From positions 1 through 39,522 of the forward strand of contig QKHT01000170.1 in the NCBI GenBank assembly GCA_003249935.1: a DNA stretch of 39,522 bases. Direction: 5' to 3'. Both the position numbers and the translations under genes were made by a program. Within the stretch, counting starts at the first letter, position 1, and each line of letters starts with the position of its first letter. The stretch comes from Bacteroidota bacterium. Lineage in GTDB: Bacteria; Bacteroidota; Bacteroidia; Bacteroidales; UBA5342. Under the pieces are notes generated by a model. That model was not told where the DNA came from. It ran no database searches and was given only the letters and a program-made list of their open reading frames with translations. Below, one piece after another: positions 720 through 31,737 of the stretch.

Positions 720-1421
720 CTATAATTCGCAACCTGCCGAAATATCGAAAAACTGCAACGATTCTAAAGGCTCGGAAGCCACAACGCTCAGTGCCTCATC
801 GTTTGGCGTAACCACAGTAACGAACTTAAAACCCTGTTCGGTAATCCGGTTATTTTCTGCCCCGATGGTATTTAAATCGTTAAGATTATCGACTAAACCA
901 ATGCCTGTTGCTTTTAATAAGCCCTCCTTTAACGTCCATATTTCGGCAAAATGTTCGGCATGGCGACCATCTTCGCAGTAGCGGTTTTCGACCGGCGAAA
1001 AGGAGTAATCGGCAACAAGCTCAAGATCGGCATCGTATGGAATTTCTTCGAGATCGGTACCCAACTCGCCCTGCCACGAAAAACCAATACAGAACGTATA
1101 ATCGGTATGACTAAGATTGAACCAAAACGGCGTACCGGGAATGTAAGGTTTACCGTTTTCGCTAATGGCAAAAACCACTTCGACTGGTTCGCATTGCAAA
1201 TATTTTGCGGCCAGTAAGCGTAAATATACATGGCTGGCCATCCAGGCACCTCGCAATGCACCATTCATTTTTTTAGCAGCCGTTTGCTCTTTTTTTGTCA
1301 ATATTGTATCCGGAACAACCCCTTTAGGTAGTTTTGCCGAGCCATAAATTACAAAAACAGCACCCGGTTCAACCAAAGATAATACACTAATTTTGTGCCA
1401 GTTAATTTCTTTAAATGCCAT
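720..1421 (-). CDS. 4'-phosphopantetheinyl transferase (Sfp family)
   Basis: The enzyme moves the phosphopantetheine arm from coenzyme A to the serine of carrier domains, turning apo into holo synthetase. The 233-residue length is usual for Sfp-type enzymes. Diagnostic blocks are FNLSHT (101-106), GTDLEE (121-126, with the magnesium-binding Asp123 and Glu125) and WTLKEGLLK (162-170, with Glu166). The start ATG at 1421 lies inside the end of the synthetase gene, whose stop is at 1413-1411, giving an 11-base overlap and probable translational coupling. It would therefore serve the three carrier domains of the neighbouring synthetase. Whether it also modifies the fatty acid carrier protein cannot be judged here. 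Confidence 0.93.
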   Translation of the reverse strand: MAFKEINWHKISVLSLVEPGAVFVIYGSAKLPKGVVPDTILTKKEQTAAKKMNGALRGAWMASHVYLRLLAAKYLQCEPVEVVFAISENGKPYIPGTPFWFNLSHTDYTFCIGFSWQGELGTDLEEIPYDADLELVADYSFSPVENRYCEDGRHAEHFAEIWTLKEGLLKATGIGLVDNLNDLNTIGAENNRITEQGFKFVTVVTPNDEALSVVASEPLESLQFFDISAGCEL

Positions 1422-4400: not shown

Positions 4401-7400
4401 GCATGGTATAATCAATCAGTACCTGAACCGAAAGCATATCGTCGGTTCGCGGGTAAAGCGAGGCTCCGGAACAAAAAGCACCAAATATTTCTTCTATTGC
4501 CGCATCGAAACCGAGATTCGAAAACTGCAAAATGCGGTCGAACGAGTTAAAACCATACAATCCAATAGCTCCCGATATAAAATTAGCCAACGCCTGTCGG
4601 CTTATTTTTACGCCCTTGGGTATGCCGGTAGAACCACTTGTATAAATAATATAGGCCAAATCGGCTGCTCGGGGTTCAGCCATTGGCCATACTGTTTCGG
4701 GTTGTGCAGACCATTGTGGTAAAAGAATGGAGACTCCATTGATATTCAAATCTGTATTTGTATCCGAAACGATGACAGTTTCAGAACCCGAATCGTTGAT
4801 TAGAAATAACTGACGGTCGGCGGGTAAACCCGGATCAACCGGCACAAACACCGCACTACAATGTAACACAGCCATTAAGGCCACAAAATATTCGTAAGAA
4901 CGAGGCAGGTTTATGGCTACAACAGATTGGTATGTAACACCTTTGTTCTTCAGTTCCGAGGCAAATGCCATTACATCAGCGCCAAATTGTGCATAGGAGT
5001 ATTCGATGCCATGGTAGTAAACAGCTAACTGCCGGGGGTGCTTCGACACATTGTTGCGAAATAATGTGTAAACATCCTCAGCCGTAGTGGTTATGGCACT
5101 TTGGTTATTTAGTATATCATCGGTTTTTTGCAACAAATGCCGGGACATCAATGGGATCTGCCCCATCGGAATATTCGGCCGCTCAACGCAATGCGCAGTA
5201 AAAGAACTAAACATTTCGCCAATCAAATCGTTACAACCTGAAATCTGTACCGAGTTGTTTACCATTGAAATTTCCAAAGTACCTTGTGGCATTTGAGTGT
5301 TGCGAGAACTGCTTTCATTGATAAAAACAGCCGGAATATTCTGACTTTCCGGCAATAATGCGGTGTATCTCAACCTTAAATCGGCCCGATACAAACCATG
5401 CTTAACCATGTTTTGTCGTTCTGATACAATGCGTTGAAGATTTGTAAGAACCGATTCATTCCGGTCGATGCTTACATTCCAAGGTAACCAGCAAGAAAAA
5501 AATCCGTTCGAAGCAGCCGAAATTTCTGCGCTCTTTTCGGTTACCAAACCAATTGTTGCCCTATGTTGCCTTGATACAATCATCGAAAATAACACAGCCA
5601 TTGCCGGGGCAACCACTTCAAAATTACCTAATCCACAACCAGCAATTTGGCCAGACAAATGATCTAAATGAATGGTCTGTAAGTTGGTAGGGCTATTCCC
5701 CGGAATACCAAAACAAACCGGATTCGGCATAAATGCCACAGATTCGAACCGACGTTTCCAGAATGGTTCATTTTTCGCTTGCTTTGCAAATTCTTTTTCG
5801 GCATACTGTAATTTTTCAGTATCCGGTTCAGCCAAAATCCTCGTACCACTAAACACACTGTTAGCATCAACCAATTGGCCTTTGGTCGAATACAAAGTTT
5901 CGAAAGAGATGCATCCATCGGCAATAGCCACCGAGTAAGCGTTGTTTTCAACAGAAACGAATCCGGGCTTAATATTCGTTTTATACCGAACACTGGCCTT
6001 ACCAACAAAGTAAAGTTGGTTCTGAACCAGGATTACCGGCAACATAAATTCGTTATCGCGGTTTGGACCAAAATCACAAGCATTCAACAACTTACCAACA
6101 GTATCGACAGACATTTGCCACGAAATAAGCCCAAGTATCGAAGGACGTTCGGCCAATCCAAAGTAGGTTCGTTCCGAAAGTTTTTGAGGCGTAGTCATCA
6201 TTTCGTTCTTCTTAAAAGCCAAAATCATGGCATTAAAAGCCGCAATAGCGGCCTCGTAGCAACGGGTATTGAGCGAAAATGCAGTATCGCCGGAATAAAC
6301 CGGTACTTGTTTCGAAACAACAATATCTCCGGCATCTATCTCATTTACAATTACATGCCACGAAATACCATGTTGCATTTCGCCATTAATGAGTGCCCGA
6401 TTCGGGGCAAACATCCCTGCATATTTTGGCAGGGGCGCATCGTGATAATTTACAGCTAAGCGCATAGCCAACGCCGTAAACGCCTGATTCAGAATTAAGC
6501 TATTGTTAATACTAAAAATAAAATCGACAGGTTTAAACACCGATAAATCCTTTACACCAGCGTAAACAGGCACTTTATTTTCGTTTAAAAAATCGACAAA
6601 AGCAATGTCTGTGGTTACTGCCGAATAAAGGACAAACCCGTTTTGCAACAAAATTTGTGCACAATGAATAGCTAAAGTCCCCTCGCCCACAACGATGCAT
6701 GTATGGTTTGAACCCTGTACTTTAAGCGTTTTAGCAATGTTTGCTATTTCGGGCTGAACCATAGCATGCGGTTCAGCCACCATAACAGAAGCGATGGTAC
6801 TGATTGATTCGGATAATTTTTCGACAAAAAATTCGTCGAAAAGCATGGTATCATATTCGAGAAAACAGTGATACGCACCGCCAACCCGCTCCACATTCAG
6901 CATCATATCCATTTTACAGGTATCGTTACCAATTTCGCGTTGGGTAAGGGTAAATCCCGGAAAAACTTCGCCGTTATGTGGCCAGTTCTGCATTACGAAT
7001 ATCGCCTGAAAAATGGGATAAACGCCCGGTTCGAACCGGTAATCGAGTTGCTTGACCAATTCGCCAAATGGCAGATTTGCGTGCGAAAATGCGCCGATTG
7101 ATGCTTCATTACATCGTTGCAACATGTCGGCAAAAGTATCATCCTCGCTCCATGACATATTGATACTTACCATATTGGTATAATAGCCTATCAGATCGGT
7201 AACCATCGGGTTTTTTCTATTGGCAAAAGGCGTTCCCACAACCACATGGTTTTGGTTTGCTGCCATACCAAGAGCCAACTGATAGGCACACATCATAAAC
7301 ACAAAGGGTGTTGTGTTAAAAGCAGTGGATACCAAATCAATTTCATTTGAGCATTGTTCCGGTATCGACCACCAGAGTCTTCGACCATATTTTCCGGCTT

Positions 7401-9906
7401 CATACGGCTGAGCATCGGGTTTGCGTGGCAATAGCAACCGGTTGGGTATTTTATTCAATGCCAATTTCCAATAATCCAATTCACCGGCATACAATCCTTT
7501 TACCAACTCACTTTGTAATTGTAGTGCATAATCGCCATGACGAAATCTCTGTGGTTCAGAACCAATACCCACATAATTATTGCGCCAACGCGACATAAAC
7601 AATTGAAGCGACCAACCATCGAAAACAATATGATGAACGGACATTAACAACCGATATTCAGATGCATTCCACTTAATTAACCTGATTGAGAATAGCGGCG
7701 GATGGTTAAAATCGAAAAGAATATGACCGTTTTCGAATATTACCTGAGCATAGTGAGCCTCCTTTTCCGAATCATTAATTTGCGAAAAATCAGACTCCGA
7801 TATATGAAAGCTAATTTCCTGAAGAATTTCCTGTACCGGCCCATCGTTTGTTACTGGCAACGCACTACGCAACATCTCTTCGTTTTGTATTGTTACGCGT
7901 AATGCCTCCAAAAGCCGGGTTTTATCGACTTTACCCTTTGCAATAAATTCAATATGTATATTATGCGTTAATCCGCTACTGTCGAGGCTATTCATAACCC
8001 ACATTTCGTTCTGAACCGGTGTTAGCGGATAAATGGTACGCAGAAGATTAGGTTCATATGAATGGTAGACTTCCGGTTCAAAATTCGCTTTTAACAAATT
8101 GGTAATATGCGTTGCCATAACCGGCAATGTGGTTTGCCCGTAAAACAGTTGAAGTGGCAATTCGACACCAAACTGCTTTATCACTTCGGTAATTACCTGA
8201 ATAGCTTTGAGCGAATGGCCGCCCGACTGAAAAAATGTGGCATCTGTTGCAACAGATTCTTTGCCAAGAATTTTGCACCAGATTTTTAATAATGCCTCTT
8301 CAGTTTCGTTTTGGGGAACAAACGGTTCGAAATAATCTGTGGTGCACAATTCGCATACAGGTTTTAATGCCCTTTTATCTATTTTACCATTGGGTGTTAG
8401 CGGAAAATTTCGGCATATAACCAATTCACCAGGAATCATAAACTGTGGCAAAAAAGCAGATAATGAAGCGATTACAGCCTCTTTTAGCGACTCATTAGCC
8501 ATGAAATAGTTGCTGTCGGGTTCAGGCAATAAATCCACAGGCTTCAAATAAGCCACAATGGCATCGTCGCCATTGCGGTCTTTTGCAAATACAACCGCAC
8601 TTTCGCTCACAAAGGAAATTTGTTGTACTGCATTTTCTATTTCGCCAAGTTCTATTCGGAGTCCCCGTAGTTTAACCTGAAAATCGCGACGACCAATAAA
8701 ATCGTACATCCCCGATGGCAGGCGTTTGCCAATATCGCCCGTACGATACATTTTCTTGCCCGGAACAAATGGGTCATTTACAAAACGTTCGGCCGTAAGT
8801 TCGGGCCTGTTGAGGTATCCGTTAGCCACGCCGGCTCCTCCAATACAAATTTCACCTTCTTCGCCTTCAGCAACAGCATTCAACGTTTCATCCAGGATGT
8901 ATATATTGTCGTTGGTAACATTTTCGCCTATCGGAATTTTAGTGTATTTTTCGGTTGGATTGCAAAGATAGGTTGTGGCATAAACCGTGGTTTCGGTTGG
9001 GCCATAAACATTGATAAGTTTCACCCGTTCTCCATCCACCAATTCGTAAAACCTATTGACCAAAGAAACCGGCAACACTTCGCCACCTACCGAAACCCAT
9101 TTTAATGAAGCCAGTTGCGTTTGTTTTTTAGCTGTAATGGCATAATCGACAAACGCATTTAACATCGAAGGCACAAAAAAGAGAAAATTTACCCCAAACC
9201 GATTAATGAGTTTCACCAACTGCACCGGATCTTTTTCGGCACCCACCGGGGCAATCAACAGCATAGCCCCCATAGCCATCCAACCGAAAAGCTCCCAGAT
9301 TGAACCATCGAAAGTATATGGCGATTTTAACATCACCACATCGCCTTTAGTTATAGGATATCGGTTCTGAACATCATTCAACAGATTTACAACTGCCGAG
9401 TGTGGCACCATAACGCCTTTTGGTATTCCGGTTGAACCGCTCGTAAAAAGTACGTACGCATTATCCGAAGGCTGGTAATCAACCGAAAATAATCCTGTTT
9501 CGATCTCATCATTCAAAACAGGAACAAGAGCACAAAAACCTTGATGATTGAAACGTGCGACCAATGGCGCATGAGTAATCACAACTTTTACACCAGCATC
9601 TTCAAATACCGACTTAACACGCTCCCCGGGATAATTGGTATCCATTGGCACATAAGCAGCACCGGTAGCTAAAACAGCAAAAATGGCCACAACCATCTCG
9701 GCCGAACGATCGAGGCAAATGCCAACCATATCCCCCCGATTTACGCCATTCTTGTTCAGTTCATTTGCTACAGAAATAATGCAGTGGTTAAATTCGGAAT
9801 AAGTGAAATGATACCCTTCTCCAATAATGGCCGTTTCGTTTGGAAAACGAGCTACGGCATACTTTAAAACATCAATCAGATGTTTTACATTTTCATTTTG
9901 TGGCAT
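1411..9906 (-). CDS. Non-ribosomal peptide synthetase, A-T-C-F-(half C)-A-T-TE-T-TE
   Basis: A 2831-residue assembly line in one unbroken frame. Domains by residue: adenylation A1 about 1-530 (LFTSGSTGIPKG, YGPTETT, TPNGKIDK); carrier T1 around Ser564 (GGHSLKA); condensation about 625-1045 with an intact HHIVFDG near 757; formyltransferase-like domain about 1075-1250 with N-x-H in NYHDAPLPKYAG near 1152 and the DAGDIV loop, plus its C-terminal subdomain to about 1360; a region about 1395-1610 resembling only the C-terminal half of a condensation domain; A2 about 1635-2120; T2 near 2154 (ELGGHSLKA); thioesterase TE1 with GFSIGG near 2284 and GEH near 2455; T3 near 2518 (FNSLRI); TE2 with GFSFGG near 2649 and GAH near 2802. 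With no upstream C domain, A1 is a loading module, so the simplest product is a dipeptide, possibly formylated, or an oligomer of it. The substrates and product are unknown. Confidence 0.95.
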   Translation of the reverse strand: MPQNENVKHLIDVLKYAVARFPNETAIIGEGYHFTYSEFNHCIISVANELNKNGVNRGDMVGICLDRSAEMVVAIFAVLATGAAYVPMDTNYPGERVKSVFEDAGVKVVITHAPLVARFNHQGFCALVPVLNDEIETGLFSVDYQPSDNAYVLFTSGSTGIPKGVMVPHSAVVNLLNDVQNRYPITKGDVVMLKSPYTFDGSIWELFGWMAMGAMLLIAPVGAEKDPVQLVKLINRFGVNFLFFVPSMLNAFVDYAITAKKQTQLASLKWVSVGGEVLPVSLVNRFYELVDGERVKLINVYGPTETTVYATTYLCNPTEKYTKIPIGENVTNDNIYILDETLNAVAEGEEGEICIGGAGVANGYLNRPELTAERFVNDPFVPGKKMYRTGDIGKRLPSGMYDFIGRRDFQVKLRGLRIELGEIENAVQQISFVSESAVVFAKDRNGDDAIVAYLKPVDLLPEPDSNYFMANESLKEAVIASLSAFLPQFMIPGELVICRNFPLTPNGKIDKRALKPVCELCTTDYFEPFVPQNETEEALLKIWCKILGKESVATDATFFQSGGHSLKAIQVITEVIKQFGVELPLQLFYGQTTLPVMATHITNLLKANFEPEVYHSYEPNLLRTIYPLTPVQNEMWVMNSLDSSGLTHNIHIEFIAKGKVDKTRLLEALRVTIQNEEMLRSALPVTNDGPVQEILQEISFHISESDFSQINDSEKEAHYAQVIFENGHILFDFNHPPLFSIRLIKWNASEYRLLMSVHHIVFDGWSLQLFMSRWRNNYVGIGSEPQRFRHGDYALQLQSELVKGLYAGELDYWKLALNKIPNRLLLPRKPDAQPYEAGKYGRRLWWSIPEQCSNEIDLVSTAFNTTPFVFMMCAYQLALGMAANQNHVVVGTPFANRKNPMVTDLIGYYTNMVSINMSWSEDDTFADMLQRCNEASIGAFSHANLPFGELVKQLDYRFEPGVYPIFQAIFVMQNWPHNGEVFPGFTLTQREIGNDTCKMDMMLNVERVGGAYHCFLEYDTMLFDEFFVEKLSESISTIASVMVAEPHAMVQPEIANIAKTLKVQGSNHTCIVVGEGTLAIHCAQILLQNGFVLYSAVTTDIAFVDFLNENKVPVYAGVKDLSVFKPVDFIFSINNSLILNQAFTALAMRLAVNYHDAPLPKYAGMFAPNRALINGEMQHGISWHVIVNEIDAGDIVVSKQVPVYSGDTAFSLNTRCYEAAIAAFNAMILAFKKNEMMTTPQKLSERTYFGLAERPSILGLISWQMSVDTVGKLLNACDFGPNRDNEFMLPVILVQNQLYFVGKASVRYKTNIKPGFVSVENNAYSVAIADGCISFETLYSTKGQLVDANSVFSGTRILAEPDTEKLQYAEKEFAKQAKNEPFWKRRFESVAFMPNPVCFGIPGNSPTNLQTIHLDHLSGQIAGCGLGNFEVVAPAMAVLFSMIVSRQHRATIGLVTEKSAEISAASNGFFSCWLPWNVSIDRNESVLTNLQRIVSERQNMVKHGLYRADLRLRYTALLPESQNIPAVFINESSSRNTQMPQGTLEISMVNNSVQISGCNDLIGEMFSSFTAHCVERPNIPMGQIPLMSRHLLQKTDDILNNQSAITTTAEDVYTLFRNNVSKHPRQLAVYYHGIEYSYAQFGADVMAFASELKNKGVTYQSVVAINLPRSYEYFVALMAVLHCSAVFVPVDPGLPADRQLFLINDSGSETVIVSDTNTDLNINGVSILLPQWSAQPETVWPMAEPRAADLAYIIYTSGSTGIPKGVKISRQALANFISGAIGLYGFNSFDRILQFSNLGFDAAIEEIFGAFCSGASLYPRTDDMLSVQVLIDYTMQHGVTVWDLPTAFWREVVSQRLFADEIPDCDLRVIIIGGEAVTLADVALWNRCNHPDIRLFNTYGPTETTVVALAHEIHLNNPYSFSVPIGRPLPGFKIAVCNASGQMLPPGLAGELHIGGVSVSNGYVNVPDPLSLVFYHQSGNNGSAEKWYKTGDLVVSDMHGVVYYLGRTDAQLKIRGFRVEPGEVEAAVLAISGVENCAVIAFEKKNGEKALAAFFTGKSMQNNAKSIRLLLKERLPDYMVPEIVVHTEKIPLTPNGKVDKKALTLLANDAVVSKNAGKEKPETVTEQVLHQLWCDILQIENIGIRDDFFELGGHSLKAVKMAAGIKKSLDIDLPLASLISYPTIKQLAALIDSRKIDKLWNIIVPIRSVGSLTPLFLIHGAGLNVLLFQSLSKYLNADRPIYALQAKGLDGKQAISTSIEEMAHDYIAEIQKIQPVGPYHLFGFSIGGFIAYEMARCLTEKGYQIAFLGVIDSVATMACDSGPLPLKIGRKAYHLLAMVVYLVFLFLVEPWSGKRHFLKNKWNNFRVIIRYIGAKLNSEPAQLGKTDSGNEPVFMAEKVKLIMFDALKQYRIKKAPVKLHLFKAAKATFYIPDRKRYGWGKFASEGVVQHTIPGEHSTMFAPPNDSLFSEILDRALTSAEPVNGEMFVSADYLLKLAREIAGNPFISFDDHLIDVGFNSLRIIRFIAALERDYGISLTLTEFYSKPNIARLAEYINRECDLSSRNSIVTIKQGDAKSVPMFVIDGFGLKTLAFHHLATHFPEDQTVYVLQACMQNGELLVPESVELLAEYYINQIKTIIPTGPIHLVGFSFGGFVVYEMARQLTHSPLKIVKLSILDTSAYFIPAHNQSLFSFKLKTKRFQLIRFVNLERKAQIASLKKNLGKLANTVLPSSLEIRDDLQKTMSFNDNLYERSVQMIKQYRMTKLEISISLVTSDSYLKYGGKYLGWEKFVSGTIEVLHLNGAHLDLFSPEKLDNLAQFLITIKSNTNNGI

Positions 9907-13472: not shown

Positions 13473-14732
13473 TTAATTTTTAAGTGTAAACATAAACCTT
13501 GCGCCATGGCCTGGTTCCGATTCGGCCCATATTGACCCGCCATGCCGTTCCACAATACGCTTAACGGTGCTCAAACCAACACCGGTACCATTAAACTCTT
13601 CGTTGGAGTGTAGCCTGATAAATGGACTAAATAGTTTTGAAGCCTTTTCCATATCAAATCCGGCACCGTTATCTTCAACAAAATATACGGTTTGACCATT
13701 GGCATCGTAACTACCAAATTTAATCACCGCCTGCGGATTCTTCTGGCTGTATTTCCAGGCATTGCCCAAAAGATTATTTAGCACAACGCGCATCAGACCA
13801 TTATCTGCATGTATATTTATATCAGGTTCAATTATTACCTGCACCTTGCGGTCCGGTTCCCGCATTTTTATTTCGGCCAAAACTTTCTCGGCCAAAAGCG
13901 ATATATTAAACAAATCGGGATTAATTTCGGTACGCCCCGATCGCGAAAATTGAAGCAAATCTTCGATAAGTTGCGCCATATTACTTACCGATTGCATCAT
14001 AAATTTCAAACATTCCTTGCCATAATCGTCCAAAAACTCATCATAATCGTCGAGCAATATATTGGCAAAACCCATTACACCATTAAGTGGCGAACGCAAG
14101 TCGTGCGAAACCGTATGCGCAAATGCATCGAGTTCCTGGTTAGCGGTCTGCAAACTTTCGTTAAGCACCTGCAACTGCCGTTGGGCCATTATTAGTTGCT
14201 CGTTGCGGTGTATCGCCGCTTCGTATACAGACAATAACAGATCGAGTATTTGCTTTTTATCTGAGTTGATTAGAAATTTTTCGTTCTGAAATACAACCTC
14301 CATCGACATATCGCCCATGCCAGCCCGGCGAATATCGCGGTTAGCCAACAAATATTTTATGCGCGACAGCAAATACTGGTCTTCGTAAGGTTTGGTGATA
14401 AAATTATCGGCCCCGGCCTGCAACCCTTTAATAATATCCATGGGGTCGCTCAATGAGGTGAGTAATATTACAGGTACATCCTTTAATTCGGGGTTGGTTT
14501 TTACCCTTGAACACAAGGTGTAACCGTCCATTTTAGGCATAATAATATCACTGATGATAAGCACCGGCTTCTTCATTATGGCTGCATTCAGGGCATCTTC
14601 GCCATTATCGAAGATAACATTATTAATATTATTGCCATCGAGCAAAAATTTCAGCTTTTTTGCCTGAACTTTTGAGTCTTCGGCGGCCAGAATATAACCC
14701 TCGTTTAAACTGATACTATATGATGTAGACAT
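13473..14732 (-). CDS. Response regulator-histidine kinase (REC-HisKA-HATPase)
   Basis: A 419-residue soluble signalling protein. The N-terminal receiver has the phospho-acceptor Asp62 (LIISDIIMPKMDG), the acidic AED near 17-19, LLTS and the conserved KPY. A coiled-coil linker leads to the HisKA box SHDLRSPLNG, with the phospho-histidine near 210. The ATPase domain follows with NNLLGNAWKYS (N box), DNGAGF (G1) and GTGVGLSTVK (G2). It is the last gene of the chemosensory cluster, 3 bases behind cheB. That is the position held by the diguanylate cyclase WspR in Wsp systems. CheA-type phosphorylation of its receiver, controlling its own kinase activity, is inference. The next phospho-acceptor is not encoded nearby. 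Confidence 0.9.
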   Translation of the reverse strand: MSTSYSISLNEGYILAAEDSKVQAKKLKFLLDGNNINNVIFDNGEDALNAAIMKKPVLIISDIIMPKMDGYTLCSRVKTNPELKDVPVILLTSLSDPMDIIKGLQAGADNFITKPYEDQYLLSRIKYLLANRDIRRAGMGDMSMEVVFQNEKFLINSDKKQILDLLLSVYEAAIHRNEQLIMAQRQLQVLNESLQTANQELDAFAHTVSHDLRSPLNGVMGFANILLDDYDEFLDDYGKECLKFMMQSVSNMAQLIEDLLQFSRSGRTEINPDLFNISLLAEKVLAEIKMREPDRKVQVIIEPDINIHADNGLMRVVLNNLLGNAWKYSQKNPQAVIKFGSYDANGQTVYFVEDNGAGFDMEKASKLFSPFIRLHSNEEFNGTGVGLSTVKRIVERHGGSIWAESEPGHGARFMFTLKN

Positions 14733-14735
14733 TTT

Positions 14736-15800
14736 CTATAGAATTGTTTTATCTGCTATTTCAATCAATTGATTAACAATCTCATCGGGAGACATTATAC
14801 TTATGGCCCCACCCAATTTTACTGCTTCGCCCGGCATACCCCAAACAAGCGATGTTTCGGCACTCTGAACAATGGTATGTGCGCCGGCATTCCGTAATAA
14901 TCTAAGCTCTTCGGCTCCATCGCGCCCCATTCCTGATAACAAAATGGCAACGGTATTTGCGCCATACACAGTTGCTGCGGTACGAAACAATACCGATACG
15001 GCAGGTCGCAAATTTGCTTCCGGTATACCAGCTTCAGAAGAAACCAATCCGCCATTTTTTAGTACCAAATGACAATCACCTTTTGGCAAATATACAACAC
15101 CACGCTCTATTTTTTCGATTTCACCGGCAATTTTTACAGGCAATGCCGAAAAACCGGACAACCATTGACAGTATCCCTCTGCAAAATGGGTATCGATATG
15201 TTGAACAATAAATACCGGAAGAGAAAAACTAACCGGCAATTGGCTCAATATTGCTTTTACAGCCTGCGGTCCACCGGCCGATGCCCCAATAACAACCACT
15301 TCATAACGCGCCCTTTCTGTACTAAATCCACCCTCATTTTTTGGGGTTGAACCGATTATTTTTGGATTAATTTCAACTTTTTTGCGTCGCACCACTTTTA
15401 CCTCGGCCATAGATTTTAGCATACCGACGTACTTTTTGGCCGTTTGTGCATATTTTTCGTGAGCCGGACCATAGGGCTTTGGCATAATATTTACGGCACC
15501 AGCTTCCAGCACCTTCATCGCCATTTCTATTTCCGAAGGTCTGTAAAAGCTACTTACAATAACAATTGGGGTCGGATTTTCGCACATAATTTTTTGTGTG
15601 GCCACGATGCCGTCCATCAGGGGCATATTCAAATCCATACTTATCACATCCGGCTTCAAACTTTTTACCATATCAATAGCCAACTGACCATTTTCGGCCT
15701 CTCCAACAATTTCAATCCCACTGTCGTCCTGCAAAATATGCCTAAGGAGTTTGAGCGAGACGAAACTGTCTTCTACAATTAAAACCCGTGTTTTTTTCAT
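14736..15800 (-). CDS. cheB: Chemotaxis response regulator / methylesterase CheB
   Basis: CheB removes methyl groups from receptor glutamates, resetting receptor sensitivity when CheA phosphorylates it. The receiver domain has acidic Glu10-Asp11, phospho-acceptor Asp56 (ISMDLNMP) and Lys108. After a linker of about 50 residues, the methylesterase domain shows the Ser-His-Asp triad in GASAGGP (Ser near 173), VQHID and LLSGMGRDGAE. All three residues are present, so it should be active. It lies 16 bases downstream of cheA and 3 bases upstream of the REC-kinase gene. In Wsp-type systems the equivalent is WspF. Confidence 0.95.
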   Translation of the reverse strand: MKKTRVLIVEDSFVSLKLLRHILQDDSGIEIVGEAENGQLAIDMVKSLKPDVISMDLNMPLMDGIVATQKIMCENPTPIVIVSSFYRPSEIEMAMKVLEAGAVNIMPKPYGPAHEKYAQTAKKYVGMLKSMAEVKVVRRKKVEINPKIIGSTPKNEGGFSTERARYEVVVIGASAGGPQAVKAILSQLPVSFSLPVFIVQHIDTHFAEGYCQWLSGFSALPVKIAGEIEKIERGVVYLPKGDCHLVLKNGGLVSSEAGIPEANLRPAVSVLFRTAATVYGANTVAILLSGMGRDGAEELRLLRNAGAHTIVQSAETSLVWGMPGEAVKLGGAISIMSPDEIVNQLIEIADKTIL

Positions 15801-15816
15801 TTTAGCCGTTGTGCTG

Positions 15817-18075
15817 TTAAATTAATCGATTGATCGTTTCAATTAAATTGCCCTTTTCAAAACTGCTTTTAACCAAATACGCATCGGCCCCTGCATCGAG
15901 TCCGCGCCTTTTATCGGCTTCTGTTTCGAGCGCGGTGACCAAAATAAGGGGCAAATGGGCCATAGATGCCGTTTTACGAACCATAGCCGTAAGTTCAAAC
16001 CCATTCATCAGTGGCATTTCAACATCCGAAACAATAAGGTCGTATGTTTTTTCACTTAGCATATCGAAGGCATTACGGCCATTTATGGCAATATCTACCG
16101 TAAATCCCTCAGATTCTAATAATTTTCGCAACATGCTCCGAATGGTAAGCGAATCGTCGACAACCAATAACCGCTTTTCGCTCTTATGCTCAGCAGATGG
16201 TTCATCCGAAGCATTAAACAACTTAACCAAATGCCCGGCCTGCTTTGTAACCAATTCGCCAATATTAAGCACCGGAACCAATGCACCGTTTTTCAGGTAA
16301 GTTACACCTGCTATACCAATAACGCTTTGCAACTGCCGGCCTAAATCTTTTATAATCCCTTCCTGCACTTCAAAAATATCATCAACCAAAATCGCATATC
16401 GGGCCGAACCGGTATCTGCAATGAGTACCGGCATAAGACGAGGACGCTTTTCGACGGTTGCATGGTGTGGAACCTTTAACAAGTTGCTTAAACGCAACAC
16501 ACTGATATACTCGTGGTTGAACCGAATAGTTTCCTGCGATTCAATCATTACAATATCCTCCGGGGTTATATGTTGCGACAAGGCTACTTCGTTTACCGGC
16601 ACCACATAATTGCTGCCTGCTACCGATACCACTACCCCTTTAAAGGTAGAAAGTGATTGTGGAACCGTAATAATAAACTTAGTGCCTTTACCGGGTTCAC
16701 TCTCCACAAATACCGTTCCGCCTAACTTCATCACCTTTTCGGCTACAATACTCATTCCAAGCCCCCGACCCGACAGGTCTGTTACATTTTCCCTGGTCGA
16801 AATGCCCGATGCAAATATTAATTGATGAACCTCCGAAATGGCCATTTCTTTTATTCTCGACGCATTAATAATACCCTTTTCAAGGGCTTTGGCCAACAAT
16901 TTTTCATGGCTGAGGCCCGCGCCATCGTCGGATACAGTGACAGTAATACGCCTCGAAACATCCTGAATTACATGTATTTGTAACAGTCCACTCACATTTT
17001 TACCATTGGCAGCCCGGTCTGCCATCGATTCAATGCCATGATCGACACAATTTCTTATCAAGTGAATAATGGGGTCTTTAAGCTCCTCAACAATTCGCCG
17101 GTCTAATTCGGTTTCGCCGCCTGCAATTTCAACCCGAATCTCTTTGCCCAGTTCGCGCGATAAATCGCGTACCATTTTTGGCACAATTTGCATTACATGC
17201 GAAATGGGTATAAGAAGCAGTGATTTTAAATTAAATAAGAGCTCATCGATAACCCTTGTCGTATTATTTAACAAATCGTCAATATTTTTTTCGAGTCGAA
17301 CCACATCTTCGTAATGGGTACTCATAAAACTGCCTGAAGCCGTTGCTGAAACACCGTTAGAATACTCGGCTTTTTTATACCGTTTTAGTCGTTCCGAAAT
17401 ACCATTAACCGATTCAGAAATAAATTCCTGCGAAAGCTTAATACCAATGAGTTCTTCAGCCTGCTGTAGTATTCCATAGAGTTTTTCGGTAGAAATTCGA
17501 ACCGACCCCTTCTCGGTTACCGGTTCAGGCTTGTTAAACAAGGGCCCTTCGGGGTTTTCAACAACAGGTTCAGGCAAAATAATGGTTTCGGCCTGAACCG
17601 GTAGGACGGCCTGTTCGGTTGGTTTTTGTGCCAAAGCAGGTTCGGCGTTAACGTAATCTGCAAAAAATTGAGGATTGAGCCGTATCGTTTCGATGGTTTT
17701 GAGCAAAAATGCAAATTGCGAAGGTTTTGAAAATGATTGATTTCCAACCTGTGTAAGCAATAGCCGCAACATATCCGAAGCCTTGTGCAATTCGTCGAAC
17801 ATTGTTGGCGACAATTTAAGTCTACCCGCCTTCACCTCGCCAAACACGCTTTCGAGGTTCATACATAATTGTTCAATATCGTGCAAATCGACGGCACGTG
17901 CGGCTCCTTTCAGGCTGTGCATTTCACGAAATACCATTTCCACAACCGACTGATCATCGGCAGAAGCAGGTGGCTTTTCGAGTTCGAGCAAACCAGTTTC
18001 AATATTTTCGAGATGCTCAGCAGCCTCAAGTTTAAAATCCTCTAAAAGCTCCAGAAAAAACGCGTCGTTATCCAT
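15817..18075 (-). CDS. cheA: CheA-type histidine kinase with C-terminal receiver
   Basis: A 752-residue hybrid kinase, longer than classical CheA because a receiver is fused at the end. Order: HPt domain with His53 (HSLKGAARA); a Pro/Glu-rich linker about 120-190 with no recognisable P2 domain; dimerisation and ATPase region with the N box HLIRNCVDHGIES, G1 DDGAGL and G2 GRGLGMSIV; a CheW-like domain about 480-610; and a receiver about 640-752 with phospho-acceptor near residue 683 (IVSDVEMP) and Lys in YLVKSS. The same CheA-REC layout is found in WspE and FrzE. The fused receiver probably acts as a phosphate sink or relay. It sits between the receptor and cheB genes with gaps of 13 and 16 bases. 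Confidence 0.95.
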   Translation of the reverse strand: MDNDAFFLELLEDFKLEAAEHLENIETGLLELEKPPASADDQSVVEMVFREMHSLKGAARAVDLHDIEQLCMNLESVFGEVKAGRLKLSPTMFDELHKASDMLRLLLTQVGNQSFSKPSQFAFLLKTIETIRLNPQFFADYVNAEPALAQKPTEQAVLPVQAETIILPEPVVENPEGPLFNKPEPVTEKGSVRISTEKLYGILQQAEELIGIKLSQEFISESVNGISERLKRYKKAEYSNGVSATASGSFMSTHYEDVVRLEKNIDDLLNNTTRVIDELLFNLKSLLLIPISHVMQIVPKMVRDLSRELGKEIRVEIAGGETELDRRIVEELKDPIIHLIRNCVDHGIESMADRAANGKNVSGLLQIHVIQDVSRRITVTVSDDGAGLSHEKLLAKALEKGIINASRIKEMAISEVHQLIFASGISTRENVTDLSGRGLGMSIVAEKVMKLGGTVFVESEPGKGTKFIITVPQSLSTFKGVVVSVAGSNYVVPVNEVALSQHITPEDIVMIESQETIRFNHEYISVLRLSNLLKVPHHATVEKRPRLMPVLIADTGSARYAILVDDIFEVQEGIIKDLGRQLQSVIGIAGVTYLKNGALVPVLNIGELVTKQAGHLVKLFNASDEPSAEHKSEKRLLVVDDSLTIRSMLRKLLESEGFTVDIAINGRNAFDMLSEKTYDLIVSDVEMPLMNGFELTAMVRKTASMAHLPLILVTALETEADKRRGLDAGADAYLVKSSFEKGNLIETINRLI

Positions 18076-18088
18076 GTTTTTCCTTTAT

Positions 18089-19564
18089 CTATAAATTAAA
18101 CCGATCCACCAACTCTTTTAGCTTCTGACCGAGATTTTTCATATCGTTTACCGCTTCACGCGTTTGCTTCATGCCTACAACATTTTGCTCACTGGCCTGC
18201 CGGATGTTTTCCATCGCCGGCACAATCTGGTCCATACCGGCTATTTGTTGCTGGCTCGATGAGTTAATTTGTATCGACGAATTAAATGTTTCATCCACAT
18301 TTTGCGCCAAAAGTTCAATTGCTTCGCCACTCTGCTCGCTCAGTTTTCGCCCGGTTGCTACCGTTTCGCCACCTTGCTTGGTTACCAAAACAGTTTGATT
18401 AATCAGCTTTTGTATTTCGCTCAAAATTTCTTTAACCTGAATGGTAGCTTTTTTAGACTGTTCAGATAATCGCCTGATTTCCTGAGCTACCACTGCAAAT
18501 CCACGACCATGTTCGCCGGCCTTTGCTGCTTCTATTGCAGCATTTACTGCCAACAAATTCGACTGATCGGCAATATCGGCAACCGTGGCAGTGATGTCAC
18601 TAACCGATTGGTTTTGCTCCGAAAGTTTAACAACAGTTTCGGCAATAACCTTCATTTGTTCATCAATTTTTTGTATCGCCTCAATGACATTGGCCACCGA
18701 TTCTTTGCCGGCCTCAACCGAATCCGATGCACGTTGAGAACTTAACATTAGTGTTTGCGCCTTTTGTCCGGCAACCAACGATGTTTGCCTTACCTCCTCG
18801 AGCGTGGTGGTGGTTTCGTTAATGGAGGTAGAGGTTTCGGTAGCACCGGTAGCGATTTCGGTTACAGTACTCAAAATTTCGGCTACGGAACTTCCCAAAA
18901 CATTTATGCCTTCGCGAACTTCATGCGTGGCATTTTTTATGAGTTTTATGATATCGCGAATGAGGAAAAATGCAATAATTACAATCAATACACCCAAAAC
19001 AGATAGTACCGACAGGGATACAGTGGTTGTTTTTGTTGCCTGTTGCCGTATTTCGCCGGCTTTTGCAGCCAGTGCTTGTTGCAACACCAACACAACTGAT
19101 ACACTATTATCGTAAATCTGATTCCACTTTTCGAGTGAAATATTCTCTTTTGGATTTCGATTTCGCAGCAACTGTGTCACCAGCTCCGTTTCAGAATCGA
19201 GACCGGCATACAAGCTATTCAATCTGTCCACTTCAGTCTTAAACCCTTCTACAATATCCACCTTTTCACAAAACAATTTGTAGCTTGCTTCCAATGCGGC
19301 CTTTTTATCGTTTAATGTATTGGGCTGAACCAATTGGGGCTGAATAGCCGAATGATTAATAGCCGCTGACAATCCAAGGTGAGCGTTATTGTAGTCATTA
19401 AGGCTAATTAATGCACCGGTTGCCTCGGCATACCGCTGTTGCGCCTTCGAAATGCTCGACACACTAATCCAAAGCACAATCAAACAAACAATTACACCAA
19501 ATATGATGAACGAAAATCCAAAGAAAATCTTTGTTCGGGGCGAAAACTTAAACTTTGATTCCAT
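18089..19564 (-). CDS. Methyl-accepting chemotaxis protein
   Basis: A 491-residue membrane receptor. A transmembrane helix lies at about 12-35 and a second at about 180-202, enclosing a mostly helical periplasmic sensor of about 145 residues that could be a four-helix bundle. The cytoplasmic part begins with a short, poorly conserved HAMP-like stretch, then helices rich in Thr/Ser/Glu that resemble methylation sites ([18 protein letters not shown]). The signalling tip is highly conserved ([32 protein letters not shown]). No CheR-tethering pentapeptide is at the C terminus. It is the only receptor in the cluster and would be the dedicated input of this pathway. The ligand is unknown. Confidence 0.94.
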
Positions 19565-19567
19565 ATA

Positions 19568-20089
19568 TTACAATTTTGTTTTTTTTTGATTTACAATTAC
19601 AGCGGTACTATTTAACAATTTCTCTACATCGAGCAATATCATACCATGGTCGGTTACCCCTTTTGCATAAGCATTCGATACAGTGGGCGGTAAAGGCTTA
19701 AAAGTTTCATTCGACACGGTATAACTACCCAAAATGCCATTTGTTAAAATCCCAAACTCCATTGCCGGGGTGCATAAAACAATCACCTTATCAGCCTCTT
19801 TCAACCCCTTTTGTTTTAAATTTAAAAACAACCGGATATTAATGACCGAAATTACTCTTCCTCCAAAATTTATTACGCCCATCACAAAATCGGGCGTACC
19901 GGGGATGAGGGTAATTTCTTTAAGTGTAATTACCTGGCAAACAAACCGATTATCAATCAAATACTTATCCGGAAAAATGGCAAATTCAATAACATCAGTT
20001 GATCCTGCATCATCGAGCAGTGGTACAATACGCGGCCTTGCCAGTGCGATTGCCCGTTCGTCCAGAATTTCTCTTTCCGATTTAATCAT
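19568..20089 (-). CDS. cheW: CheW-like coupling protein (first copy)
   Basis: A 173-residue scaffold protein linking receptor and CheA. The CheW beta-barrel pattern is clear: FPDKYLIDNRFVCQVITLKE, then PDFVMGVINFGGRVISVINIRLFL, which is the family's strongest block, followed by FGILTNGILGSYTVSNE. An N-terminal extension of about 35 residues (DERAIALARPR) is typical of some Bacteroidota CheW proteins. It lies directly upstream of the receptor gene (3-base gap), so it is transcribed just before its main partner. One of two CheW proteins in the cluster, corresponding to the WspB/WspD pair. Confidence 0.92.
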   Translation of the reverse strand: MIKSEREILDERAIALARPRIVPLLDDAGSTDVIEFAIFPDKYLIDNRFVCQVITLKEITLIPGTPDFVMGVINFGGRVISVINIRLFLNLKQKGLKEADKVIVLCTPAMEFGILTNGILGSYTVSNETFKPLPPTVSNAYAKGVTDHGMILLDVEKLLNSTAVIVNQKKTKL

Positions 20090-20142
20090 GCTTCCGACAT
20101 TTTTTTTAAAATTACAACTTTAATCATATAATCTACTGTTTT

Positions 20143-21615
20143 TCAAACCAATAATTCGATAAAATGCATAATCATATTTCGCAAATCACCCCTTGTCATG
20201 CCTTCGGCATCATCCACAAAGTCTATGTTAATGCCACTATCAATTAAATTTATAGCATTACCAAAATATTTCAATGCACGGCTGCTATTGTTTTGTTCTA
20301 CGGCTAAGTGCCCCAACGAAATGTACGAAAGCACATGGGTTCCATCTAAATAAACCGCCTTTTTAAGTACTTTCGAAGCCATCTCCAATTCGCCCTGTTC
20401 GAGCAGGTAAGTGCCATATACATATAAAAACCGGGCATTCACATTTTGTCGTTTCAAAACTTGATCGGCCCAAATAACGGTATCCGACACAACCCCCAAC
20501 TGAATATAACACTGCAAACAAATCGTATAAACTGCCATATCGGCCGGGTCGTTATTTACCCAACCATTAATCATACGAACAATCTGCTCATATTGGCCCG
20601 ATCGATACATCCCAACCACCTCCGAAACGGTTAAGCTGGGTGCATCGTCTTTTTCTGTTTTTTCTGTTTTTTTCGGTTGAACCGGTGGCTCGGCCCTGCG
20701 TTTAATCACTTTTGGCATTGGCAGATGTGTCGGGCCATTCTCTATTCGGTGTGCATTCACAGCCGCCTGCTTTTGCAGGTTGGTTTTATGGTAAAAAATA
20801 TTTGAACCAAAATAAAACTTTTTAAAATCGGGGAAGTAAGCTTCATTAAGTTCCGTCTGGCTGGGTATTAACCATCCTTCGGATGAAAGACAATTATAAA
20901 ACTTTCGGGTAATGGCATTTATAGTTGGTTTTTCGAAATATATCAGCACATTACGACAAAAGATCACATCCACGTTCTGCACCGGAATATGATCCAGAGT
21001 ATACGGATCCGCAACCAGATTCAGGTATTCGAACGTTACAAATTTGCGAACTTTGGGTATAAGTTCCCACAATTTGGCCATGGGCACAAAGTATTTGGCT
21101 CTTGTACTATCCGGTGTTTCGCGAAAAGACCATGCCGAATAAATTGCACTCCGTGCTTTATTCAGCACCCGCTCACTAATATCAGTTGCCAATAATTTAA
21201 TCCGGCCGCATTCACTCTCCGAAAAATTATCGAAGAGCGTCATTGCAATCGAATAAGGCTCCTCGCCCGAGCTGCATCCGGCACACCAGATGGTAATTTG
21301 CTTTTTACCGGATAATAATTCCGGTACAATTTTTTCGACCAAAAGATCGAGAGCCATCCTTTCGCGAAAAAAATACGTTTCATTTACTGTTAAATGTGTC
21401 GACAATACCTTGAGCTCGGATTCCGATAAACCGCTTTGGTTCAGCCAATCCAAAACTAAGGGTAACGTTTCGCTTCTATTCAGCTCTTTCGCAGCCTCCG
21501 TAACACCACGCGCCAAATCGCCAAAACGATTTTCGGTAAAATGTAATCCGAGCAGTGCTTTTATTCGCAAAGCAATCTTGCTGATTATTAGTAATTCCTC
21601 AGCATTTAATTGCAT
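20143..21615 (-). CDS. cheR: Receptor methyltransferase CheR with TPR-like C-terminal region
   Basis: CheR methylates receptor glutamates with S-adenosylmethionine. The 490 residues contain the helical N-terminal domain, FFRERMALDLL, the SAM-binding block IWCAGCSSGEEPYSIAM, and DVIFCRNVLIYF. From about residue 340 onward the protein is helical and repeat-like (VYTICLQCYIQLG, ARFLYVYGTYLLEQGELEMA, VLSYISLGHLAVEQNNSSRALKYF with breaks), read as tetratricopeptide repeats. CheR fused to TPRs is typical of WspC and FrzF and not of flagellar CheR. Its ATG overlaps the end of the preceding CheW gene by 10 bases. Confidence 0.93.
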   Translation of the reverse strand: MQLNAEELLIISKIALRIKALLGLHFTENRFGDLARGVTEAAKELNRSETLPLVLDWLNQSGLSESELKVLSTHLTVNETYFFRERMALDLLVEKIVPELLSGKKQITIWCAGCSSGEEPYSIAMTLFDNFSESECGRIKLLATDISERVLNKARSAIYSAWSFRETPDSTRAKYFVPMAKLWELIPKVRKFVTFEYLNLVADPYTLDHIPVQNVDVIFCRNVLIYFEKPTINAITRKFYNCLSSEGWLIPSQTELNEAYFPDFKKFYFGSNIFYHKTNLQKQAAVNAHRIENGPTHLPMPKVIKRRAEPPVQPKKTEKTEKDDAPSLTVSEVVGMYRSGQYEQIVRMINGWVNNDPADMAVYTICLQCYIQLGVVSDTVIWADQVLKRQNVNARFLYVYGTYLLEQGELEMASKVLKKAVYLDGTHVLSYISLGHLAVEQNNSSRALKYFGNAINLIDSGINIDFVDDAEGMTRGDLRNMIMHFIELLV

Positions 21616-22094
21616 TCGGATGGAGTATTATAAAGCAATTCGGCCAATTGCGCTTCGTCAACCGTATTTATCAGGGTATCGGCATCGCATATAAAAACCA
21701 ATGATTCATCGGAACCATACACCGTATACCTTTCGACACCTGTGGTGTTCTGCTGCAATTTTGCCCGGGAAAATTCATAAAGCTTAAAGGGAACACTTTC
21801 ATTTGAGTCAACTATTTGGTTAGCAATAAGTGCCAATTTGCCCTTTGAGGTATTTACAATGATCAACCTGCTATCCAACCCATAGTCCGAAGATGGTAAT
21901 CCGAATTTTTTACTCAAATCAATCGCAATAATACGCTCACCTTCATAATTTATTACACCGGCAATTATACTTTCGCCATGTAACAATGGCGTTATACTCA
22001 CCGCACGCACCACACGTTCTATAACCGACAATTCAATAGCAAACAACCGGTTCGACACAAGAAAATGCAGCAATAATATGTTTACATTATCCAT
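21606..22094 (-). CDS. CheW-like coupling protein (second copy)
   Basis: A 162-residue CheW-fold protein and the first gene of the chemosensory operon. The characteristic segment is IIAGVINYEGERIIAIDLSK, preceded by FAIELSVIERVVRA and followed by KLALIANQIVDSNESV. It has little beyond the fold in common with the other CheW of the cluster. In Wsp-type clusters two CheW proteins flank the CheR gene in the same way. The transcript presumably starts in the AT-rich region above 22094, where ACTTTG near 22153 is the only faintly promoter-like element I can see. Confidence 0.88.
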   Translation of the reverse strand: MDNVNILLLHFLVSNRLFAIELSVIERVVRAVSITPLLHGESIIAGVINYEGERIIAIDLSKKFGLPSSDYGLDSRLIIVNTSKGKLALIANQIVDSNESVPFKLYEFSRAKLQQNTTGVERYTVYGSDESLVFICDADTLINTVDEAQLAELLYNTPSECN

Positions 22095-29518: not shown

Positions 29519-29626
29519 ATGTAATACATTGACACTTCAATACTGCGAAACAACAATTAAGAATCATTAAACGAACAGAACACAACCGATGCGGTTCAAC
29601 AAAAAAACAAAAATTCGCAGTCAATT

Positions 29627-29643
29627 TGTCAGTCATACTGACA
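29627..29643. promoter_or_regulatory. Inverted repeat upstream of dnaK
   Basis: TGTCAGTCATACTGACA has perfect 7-base arms around CAT. It lies about 60 bases above the sigma-54-like element and about 130 bases before the dnaK ATG, a usual position for an enhancer-binding activator site. A further half site TGACA is at 29671-29675. The protein that binds it is unknown. Confidence 0.5.
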
Positions 29644-29704
29644 TTAATCCCTACCTTAATCCGGCTTAACTGACAATAAGACCCAACAAAAGCAGCGCAA
29701 CCAT

Positions 29705-29721
29705 TTGGCACATCATTTGAC
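29705..29721 (+). promoter_or_regulatory. Sigma-54-like -24/-12 element of dnaK
   Basis: TTGGCACATCATTTGAC matches YTGGCACGrNNNTTGCW at the -24 GG and the TTG with correct spacing; the one clear deviation is GA in place of the -12 GC. It would place the transcription start about 40 bases before the dnaK ATG. Confidence 0.5.
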
Positions 29722-29770: not shown

Positions 29771-31678
29771 ATGGGAAAAATAATTGGTATTGACCTTGGA
29801 ACTACAAACTCTTGCGTTTCGGTAATGGAAGGCAACGAGCCAGTGGTAATTCCAAACAGCGAAGGTAAACGTACAACGCCTTCGATTGTAGGTTTTGTAA
29901 ATAACGGCGAACGTAAAGTTGGCGATCCGGCTAAACGTCAGGCTATTACAAACCCCGAAAAAACCGTATCGTCGATTAAACGCTTCATGGGCGAATCGTT
30001 CGATCGCGTAACGAAGGAAATTGAGCGTATGCCTTATAAAGTTCTTAAAGGCGACAACAACACACCGCGTGTAGATATCGACGGCAGATTATATACACCG
30101 CAGGAAATATCGGCTATCATTCTTCAAAAGATGAAAAAAACGGCCGAAGATTATCTTGGCCAGGAAGTTACTGACGCAGTAATTACCGTTCCGGCCTATT
30201 TTAACGATGCACAACGTCAGGCCACTAAAGAAGCCGGCGAAATTGCAGGGTTAAATGTTCGTCGTATTATTAATGAACCAACAGCCGCTTCGTTGGCATA
30301 CGGCTTGGACAAACGCGACAAAGATATGAAAATTGCGGTTTTCGATCTTGGTGGGGGTACTTTCGATATTTCGGTACTCGAGCTTGGCGATGGCGTTTTC
30401 GAAGTAAAATCGACCGACGGTGATACGCACCTTGGCGGCGACGACTTCGACCATGTTATTATCGACTGGTTGGCTCAGGAATTTATTTCGGACGAAAATA
30501 TTGACCTTCGCAAAGACCCAATGGCCTTGCAACGTTTGAAAGAAGCTGCAGAAAAAGCCAAAATTGAACTCTCCAGTTCAACGTCTACCGAAATTAACCT
30601 GCCATACATTATGCCGGTAAACGGTATTCCAAAACACTTGGTGCGTACCTTGTCGCGTTCGAAATTCGAACAATTGGCCGATAAATTAATCAATGCAACC
30701 ATCGAACCATGTCGCAGAGCATTACAAAATGCCGGCGTATCGGTTTCCGATATCGACGAAGTTATTCTTGTGGGTGGTTCAACCCGTATCCCTGCAATTC
30801 AGGCCAAAGTTGAATCGTTTTTTGGTAAAACACCTTCGAAAGGGGTAAACCCCGATGAAGTTGTGGCTGTAGGCGCAGCAATTCAGGGTGGCGTACTTAC
30901 CGGCGAAGTTAAAGACGTATTGCTACTGGATGTTACGCCGCTTTCACTTGGTATCGAAACCATGGGTAGCGTAATGACCCGCTTAATCGAAAGTAACACC
31001 ACCATTCCGTCGCGCAAATCCGAAACGTTTACAACGGCTTCAGACAATCAGCCATCGGTTGAAATACATGTTTTGCAAGGCGAACGCCCAATGGCTCGCG
31101 ACAACAAAACCATTGGCCGCTTCCACCTCGACGGTATTCCACCAGCACCACGCGGTGTGCCACAAATTGAGGTAACCTTCGATATCGATGCTAACGGTAT
31201 TCTTAAAGTATCGGCAAAAGATAAAGCGACAGGTAAAGAACAAAGTATTCGTATTGAGGCTTCATCGGGCCTAAGCGACGACGAAATTAAACGCATGAAG
31301 GACGAAGCGGCACGCAATGCCGACTCTGATAAAAAAGAAAAAGAACGTATCGATAAGCTCAATGGGGCCGACTCGCTGATTTTCCAAACCGAAAAACAAC
31401 TCAAAGAGTTTGGCGATAAGATTCCGGCAGACAAAAAACAGCCTATCGACGCTGCTTTAACAAAATTGAAAGATGCCCACAAAGCGCAGGATATTGATGC
31501 CATTGATGCTGCAATGACCGAACTCAACACCGTGTTCCAGGCAGCATCGGCCGAAATGTACAACGCCAGTCAGGCACAAGGTGGCCCGCAAGCTGGTGGT
31601 GCTCAGGATACACAACCACAAGGCGGCAAAAACCCGAGCGACGAAGTAACCGATGTCGACTTTGAAGAAGTAAAGTAA
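29771..31678 (+). CDS. dnaK: Chaperone DnaK (Hsp70)
   Basis: ATP-driven chaperone that binds exposed hydrophobic segments of unfolded proteins with DnaJ and GrpE. The 635 residues run through the full family pattern: [16 protein letters not shown] at the start, [15 protein letters not shown], the phosphate-binding [26 protein letters not shown], the interdomain linker [14 protein letters not shown], the substrate-binding domain, and a Gln/Gly-rich tail ending DVDFEEVK. The upstream 250 bases hold a sigma-54-like element and an inverted repeat. No CIRCE element (HrcA site) is present. dnaJ and grpE are not adjacent; the gene is monocistronic with a strong terminator. Confidence 0.99.
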
Positions 31679-31703
31679 CACAAAACGCACACGCGAAATA
31701 CCA

Positions 31704-31737
31704 AACCGCTGCAACTAACCCTTGCAGCGGTTTTTTT
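31704..31737 (+). terminator. Terminator of dnaK
   Basis: Perfect 11-base-pair stem (AACCGCTGCAA / TTGCAGCGGTT), 7-base loop, then seven T residues. Confidence 0.95.

Follow-up and report, generated by a model that had tools for sequence, protein, structure and literature searches.

The locus analysed here raises the question of how the gene for the main chaperone, dnaK, is transcribed in a member of the Bacteroidia. In other phyla, the HrcA/CIRCE system serves both groESL and dnaK. Sigma-54 is usually associated with the control of optional functions. Members of the Bacteroidia are abundant both in the sea and in the human gut, and none of the genomes of this class that were tested contained HrcA.

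The window, which is the whole stretch of 39,522 nucleotides that was analysed, is carried by contig C83 of the genome G000, an assembly of 4.27 Mb in 326 contigs. By protein similarity, the nearest relatives of its DnaK belong to the Bacteroidales, and the class of the window was taken as Bacteroidia from the names of these relatives. The dnaK gene (29771 to 31678, forward strand) codes for a protein of 635 amino acids with a Pfam HSP70 match, scoring 1019 bits against NCBIfam NF001413 (cut-off 648). A sulfatase-family gene was identified as the divergent neighbour upstream. Downstream, a terminator-like hairpin at 31703 to 31733 on the forward strand suggests that dnaK is a single-gene unit; two such sites were found compared to 3.8 in shuffled sequences, which makes the hairpin weak when taken alone.

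The -24/-12 element upstream of dnaK

Direct reading of the forward strand revealed the boxes TGGCAC and TTGA, separated by the five bases atcat (TGGCACatcatTTGA), at positions 29706 to 29720, with TTGGCACATCATTTGAC at 29705-29721. This sigma-54-type -24/-12 element lies 65 bases upstream of the dnaK ATG and scored 24.2 on a matrix built from 79 of 80 relatives, for which 100 shuffles gave a 1% threshold of 9.0. In the standard sigma-54 geometry, transcription starts 12 bases below the G of the -12 box. With this G at 29719, the predicted start of dnaK would be at about 29731 on the forward strand, with a leader of about 40 nucleotides.

Within a single genome, such a motif carries little information. 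In the window, 41 matches to TGGCAC-N5-TTGC with up to two mismatches were counted compared to 40.2 expected, which is chance level. For TGGCAYRNNNNTTGH, 33 occurrences were found in the genome and 26 for the reversed-pattern control, so that its single -24/-12 matches are unsafe. Pattern matches upstream of the genes for SecA, thioredoxin and Lon are therefore candidates only; at lon, a TGTCA direct repeat is located below the -24/-12 match, not above it. A further site, TGGCATAATGATTGA, was observed twice, on contigs C20 and C40 (loci L107 and L108), in both cases with a TGTCA located 55 bases upstream, one preceding a gene for a protein of 484 amino acids and the other at a contig end. Since single-genome motif statistics were uninformative and the elements of the window are at chance level when taken alone, a comparison among relatives was used, and the significance of the elements rests on conservation.

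For this comparison, 80 dnaK loci were selected by protein similarity, being the best 80 of at least 574. The strict pattern, TGGYAY-N5-TTGH in the 200 bases upstream of the ATG, was identified in 76 of the 80 relatives, compared to a mean of 0.2 and a maximum of 2 in 200 shuffles, and in none of the 80 on the antisense strand. The -24/-12-like element described in the earlier note is thus both present as described and conserved. When C was permitted at the first T, 79 of 80 loci matched (shuffle mean 0.3); the remaining one, L052, has TGGCACaacgaTTGG as judged by eye. As a conserved dnaK feature, the sigma-A-type box TAnnTTTG was rejected, being found in 11 of 80 upstream regions compared to 12.2 in shuffled sequences and thus not enriched.

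The 77 strict sites, including that of the window, have their invariant letters imposed by the pattern. At the free positions, C follows TGG in 76 sites, and the base after TGGCAY is A in 63 and G in 14. After TTG, where G was barred by the pattern, A occurs in 43 sites, T in 26 and C in 8. GA in place of GC at the -12 box had been pointed out before as a deviation in the window. This doubt falls away, because A or T is usual at this position in the dnaK set, and GA reflects a preference of the clade, not the decay of a copy. Compared to the sigma-54 promoter as such, the window contains GG at -24, G at -12 and the fixed spacing (TGGCAY-N5-TTGN), with GA instead of GC at -12. The gene for sigma-54, rpoN, is present in G000 (PF04552, E 1.3e-52). 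It was found in 390 of 392 genomes of the phylum with at least 95% completeness, inside and outside the class alike. The two genomes without rpoN are both from outside the class, and their dnaK upstream regions do not contain the strict site; they are hardly usable as a control, because 12 other genomes outside the class also are without this site.

Sigma-54 chaperone promoters in Bacteroidota are already known (PMC9723704, PMC12316311). For Flavobacterium psychrophilum, which is reported to contain sigma-A, one sigma-54 and 7 ECF factors, sigma-54-type starts were mapped at dnaK, groESL, grpE-dnaJ, htpG, clpB and lon (PMC9723704). These promoters, designated SM4, are of the same -24/-12 type at the same genes, and the window is a further instance, with the difference that the TTG of the -12 box is here followed by A or T, rather than C, at 69 of the 77 dnaK sites (G being barred by the pattern). 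In its accessible text, the report leaves the activators of the chaperone group open, names no chaperone activator and contains neither an enhancer array nor a contrast to HrcA (PMC9723704). In a phylum-wide prediction, sigma-54 promoters were also described as enriched at chaperones in Bacteroidota (PMC12316311). The same report, in the portion available, calls grpE and groES of Bacteroides thetaiotaomicron sigma-54-dependent; the source it cites is a paper on Blattabacterium, and this statement was not relied on. Among open-licence papers, no earlier account of the array, the activator assignment or the contrast to HrcA treated below was found.

Together, the conserved pair of boxes at dnaK, their variants at groES and grpE described below, the presence of rpoN and the starts mapped in F. 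psychrophilum support sigma-54 control of dnaK, as the earlier note had proposed for the main chaperone. The promoter and the half-sites above it are well supported.

The TGTCA half-sites and other chaperone promoters

Upstream of the -24/-12 element, a perfect palindrome of the form TGTCA-N7-TGACA (TGTCAGTCATACTGACA, with GTCATAC as the spacer) was read at 29627 to 29643, 144 bases upstream of the dnaK ATG. Its half-sites are designated b (29627-29631) and c (29639-29643). The palindrome had been placed 90-100 bases above the implied start, which agrees with a centre at about -96. Taken alone, it does not exceed chance in the window; in the genome, the exact palindrome occurs once, and with up to two mismatches it was found at 7 places compared to 5 for the control.

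A different result was obtained with the relatives. In the 122 bases above the -24/-12 site of 77 non-redundant dnaK promoters out of the 80, window included, TGTCA/TGACA was the top enriched 5-mer (160 occurrences compared to 25.3 expected, z 27). Inverted half-sites (TGYCA, TGRCA) at the spacing of the palindrome were counted 12 times in the non-redundant set compared to 0.07 expected. The spacings of TGTCA which stood out were 8, 12, 20, 32, 44 and 52-53 bases, and these fit one array with half-sites at 0, 8, 20 and 52. In the window, this array is completed by half-site a, AGTCA (TGTCA in relatives), at 29619 to 29623 on the forward strand, 8 bases above b, and by half-site d, TGACA (TGTCA in relatives), at 29671 to 29675, with an offset of 52 from a and 32 from c. 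Half-site d ends 30 bases before the TGG of the -24 box.

The array of the window scored 19/20. A score of at least 17/20 was reached by 9 of the 80 dnaK promoters compared to 0.0 expected, and at least 15/20 by 21 compared to 0.53, on the set from which the array was derived; other genes and genome sets are the fairer test. In 8 of the 9 best arrays, 30 bases lie between the end of the fourth half-site and the -24 box. These nine include near relatives, namely three Carboxylicivirga and two nearly alike Prolixibacteraceae-like loci (L042 and L088). In a second group (L011, L013, L020, L031 and L047), the first three half-sites are located about 30 bases nearer to the promoter, and 7 of the 80 promoters contain no exact TGTCA within 150 bases. 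The half-sites in register with the promoter support the view that the palindrome would be activator-like, as it had been called in the earlier note.

Half-sites of this kind are also found in operators of sigma-54 enhancer-binding proteins (EBPs). In the accessible text of PMC4641369, yGTCA-N6-TGACr is given as the EBP operator at Desulfovibrio vulgaris DVU2894 orthologues, and FlrA-type operators (GTCA-N6-TGGC) likewise consist of inverted GTCA/TGAC half-sites, as in the array. The array differs from the FlrA type by its N7 spacing, the direct repeat at 8 and the fourth half-site at 52.

The same elements were searched for upstream of groES and grpE in 30 genomes, with a matrix of 79 dnaK sites from which the window was excluded and a 1% shuffle threshold. 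Three genomes were dropped for groES (G011 without a match, G002 with a weak match and G014 with an upstream region of 44 bases), leaving 27; for grpE, G003 gave no match and one of two G035 frames was not counted, leaving 29. Gene starts were set at the furthest in-frame ATG, which may be wrong in some cases, for example for grpE of G004, G011 and G030. For groES, 25 of the 27 genomes gave a matrix match, compared to 2 on the antisense strand; for grpE, 13 of the 29 did so, compared to none on the antisense strand. TGTCA was enriched above both groES (z 15.8) and grpE (z 6.1). At groES, which had not been used in deriving the array, the first three half-sites were perfect in 5 of 27 genomes compared to 0.0 expected, and reached at least 12/15 in 12 of 27 compared to 0.47. 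For grpE, the latter score was reached in 3 of 29 compared to 0.6 expected, which is unconvincing.

The groES sites mostly retain TTTGGCAY and the -12 G, while the two T before this G vary; in the groES upstream regions L186-L213, -12 box variants with CTG, TCG, GTG and ATG were seen next to a constant -24 box and -12 G. Many grpE sites are of the form TGGCAR-N5-TTG. In G000 itself, groES is preceded by TGGCACactatCTGT with a CTGT -12 box and one TGACA, and grpE by TGGCAatgttTTTGT with TGGCAA and one TGTCA. Of the three own promoters compared, the full array is present at dnaK alone. As to whether the pair of elements recurs at other chaperones, a check proposed in the earlier note, the variant boxes with single half-sites are found at its own groES and grpE, but the perfect palindrome is confined to dnaK. 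The elements of these two genes are weaker than those of dnaK, which speaks against a literal pair at each chaperone. The proposed multi-operon scheme clearly comprises dnaK and groESL, and probably grpE.

Distribution of the promoter, HrcA and CIRCE

The distribution of these elements was analysed in 30 genomes picked by family from 392 genomes of the phylum, 16 from the class and 14 from outside it. The strict dnaK site was identified in 15 of the 16 class genomes compared to none of the 14 others; by the matrix threshold, the numbers were 11 of 16 and 0 of 14, with 0 and 1 on the antisense strand. Above dnaK, TGTCA gave z 11.6 in the class and 2.0 outside. Among the 16 class genomes the array is less pronounced than among the 80 relatives: a score of at least 17/20 was reached in none, 14/20 in 9 compared to 1.33 expected, and 12/15 for the first three half-sites in 4 compared to 0.23. 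The case for the exact four-half-site array is good but circumstantial.

The one class genome missing the strict site, G228, has CGGCAC-N5-TTGT above dnaK. By eye, CGGCAC-N5-TTGA was seen above dnaK in three genomes from outside the class which contain HrcA (G068, G217 and G042, with loci L262, L264 and L265); this form is possibly an intermediate stage.

HrcA (PF01628) was found neither in the 17 genomes comprising G000 and the class genomes nor in 10 more genomes from which dnaK loci had been taken, and it was present in 11 of the 14 genomes outside the class. CIRCE was detected in none of 81 dnaK upstream regions, window included, and nowhere in the window when as many as 3 of 18 positions were allowed to differ, which bears out the earlier report that no CIRCE is present. 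A control unlike the HrcA model had also been suggested for this dnaK, in agreement with the lack of PF01628 in G000 and of CIRCE above the gene. In one of five hrcA loci scanned (L308), CIRCE was identified; a scan of dnaK and groES loci did not reveal it, nor was it seen above dnaK in the 14 genomes from outside the class. Because CIRCE was missing above dnaK on both sides of the class boundary, a former control of dnaK by HrcA finds no support in these data, and a takeover of the role of HrcA by the sigma-54 scheme is an inference.

A candidate activator and the proposed mechanism

A sigma-54 promoter requires consideration of the EBPs, and five full EBPs were identified in G000. One of them, L092 (contig C253, L311:1532-2791), combines the sigma-54 interaction AAA+ domain at its N terminus (PF00158, 227.5 bits) with a Fis-type DNA-binding HTH at its C terminus (HTH_8, 43 bits), and lacks both a receiver and a sensor domain. 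Its loop is GSFTGA in place of the EBP consensus GAFTGA, as given in the accessible part of PMC12316311. This domain arrangement is shared with the sensor-less EBPs of the PspF type. L092 differs from PspF by a linker of about 110 residues between AAA+ and HTH with a conserved stretch (34 sequences, one gene twice), and its inferred targets would be chaperones. In comparisons with NCBIfam and PDB, the AAA+ domain was placed among the NtrC, PspF and FleQ types with no named cut-off reached; an assignment as PspF was rejected (TIGR02974, 277 compared to a cut-off of 443.55).

An orthologue of L092 was identified in all 16 class genomes, with 52-66% identity over the reading frame. For two of these the alignment ends short of the HTH, and HTH_8 was found by Pfam in both frames. 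Outside the class, a relative with 40-45% identity is present in G068, G217, G115 and G044. The recognition helix RTLYRK is retained in 15 of the 16 class orthologues, a constancy which a constant half-site would require.

The gene order also connects L092 to the chaperones. In G000 it is EBP-lptE-TPR-like-secG-groES-groEL, as identified by the Pfam families LptE, SecG, Cpn10 and Cpn60; the TPR-like protein gave weak TPR matches, in L314 only. Of the 16 class genomes, 9 (G041, G079, G059, G083, G087, G126, G110, G102 and G287) carry groES-groEL near the EBP gene according to BLAST, and 15 carry lptE there; in the stretches fetched for the other 7, groES was not nearby. With the diverged orthologues from outside the class, groES was nearby in none of 4 and lptE in 3 of 4. 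In F. psychrophilum, the groESL tags 0728-0729 are near an EBP-LptE pair, 0732-0733, as far as the accessible text shows (PMC9723704).

Among nine genomes compared for their low number of EBPs, the L092 orthologue is the sole strong PF00158 match in three, G001, G007 and G030, of which two are metagenome bins and G030, a Porphyromonas record, does not carry this label. The promoter is retained at their dnaK loci (L010, L018 and L075). G035 was not counted as a further single-EBP genome on account of a 433-amino-acid frame with a PF00158 match that is weak and split; EBP counts for a set of 39 genomes were also left out. From its distribution, from the exclusion of other EBPs and from the gene order, the L092-type EBP is the most likely activator of dnaK; this assignment is good but circumstantial.

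The reading regarded as probable is a sigma-54 promoter at dnaK, an EBP acting from the TGTCA array, a set of several chaperone operons and an EBP activity that is set post-translationally. Sigma-54 RNA polymerase would transcribe dnaK from the promoter at 29706-29720. A dedicated EBP, most likely the groESL-linked orphan AAA+/Fis-HTH protein at L311:1532-2791, would bind the four half-sites at 29619-29675 and open the promoter by its AAA+ ATPase. The same scheme would serve dnaK, groESL and probably grpE in a class whose tested genomes are without HrcA. In a protein without a receiver or sensor domain, control of activity is probably post-translational. In the simplest case, free DnaK or GroEL would hold the EBP inactive, and misfolded protein would titrate the chaperone and thereby release it; a heat response of dnaK would follow. 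A sigma-A-type TAACTTTG box upstream of the EBP gene (L311:1483-1490) would fit constant production with control of activity. Now that a candidate for the activator can be named and the array is defined, chaperone induction becomes directly testable, and a core stress function would be added to sigma-54.

A wider reading, that the Bacteroidia have rebuilt their cytosolic heat-shock response on sigma-54, with HrcA lost and its role taken by a sensor-less, DnaK/GroEL-switched EBP, often encoded just upstream of groESL and reading a rigid four-half-site array, is put forward tentatively, as the less probable of the two, since genomes from outside the class showed neither CIRCE above dnaK nor groESL in the neighbourhood of the EBP gene. 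HrcA is a repressor, whereas the candidate EBP is an activator, and HrcA was missing from all 27 genomes comprising G000, the class genomes and the further relatives. If true, a chaperone-titrated ATPase activator would be used instead of a titrated sigma factor, which would help to explain the near-universal presence of rpoN in the phylum.

That the sigma-54 promoter is driven by another activator is unlikely, even with four other full EBPs in G000 to choose from, including REC-type proteins such as L093 and L094, and with the recurrence of proteins of the L091 type. The latter (L091:1252-2415 and relatives, for example L136 and L138-L145) are REC-AAA+ sigma-54 activators without a DNA-binding domain, 51-66% identical in 12 of the loci compared, and would act from solution for want of this domain, which leaves the array unexplained. 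The single-EBP genomes keep the dnaK promoter without any other strong EBP, and the gene order ties the Fis-HTH protein to groESL.

Still less probable is a TGTCA array which serves as the operator of a different regulator over the sigma-54 promoter. Such a regulator could be the OmpR-type RprY, for which binding to the dnaK, groES and clpB promoters of Porphyromonas gingivalis was shown by EMSA and a role as repressor was proposed, according to the accessible text (PMC3646045). The best-matching arrays, however, hold a constant distance of 30 or 31 bases to the -24 box. The array is also partly palindromic, like EBP operators, and OmpR-type regulators are usually found on direct repeats. A chance resemblance, with dnaK read from an ordinary sigma-A promoter (TAnnTTTG) such as the TACTTTTG box at 29495, would agree with the chance level of each single element in the window but is hardly credible given the strict site in 76 of 80 relatives.

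Two further gene regions were identified on the reverse strand of the window. Positions 1411-9906 code for an NRPS-like protein of 2831 amino acids with AMP-binding, condensation, formyl-transferase and thioesterase domains, and positions 13473-22094 contain a chemosensory cluster consisting of a hybrid histidine kinase, CheB, a CheA-type kinase, an MCP, two CheW and CheR.
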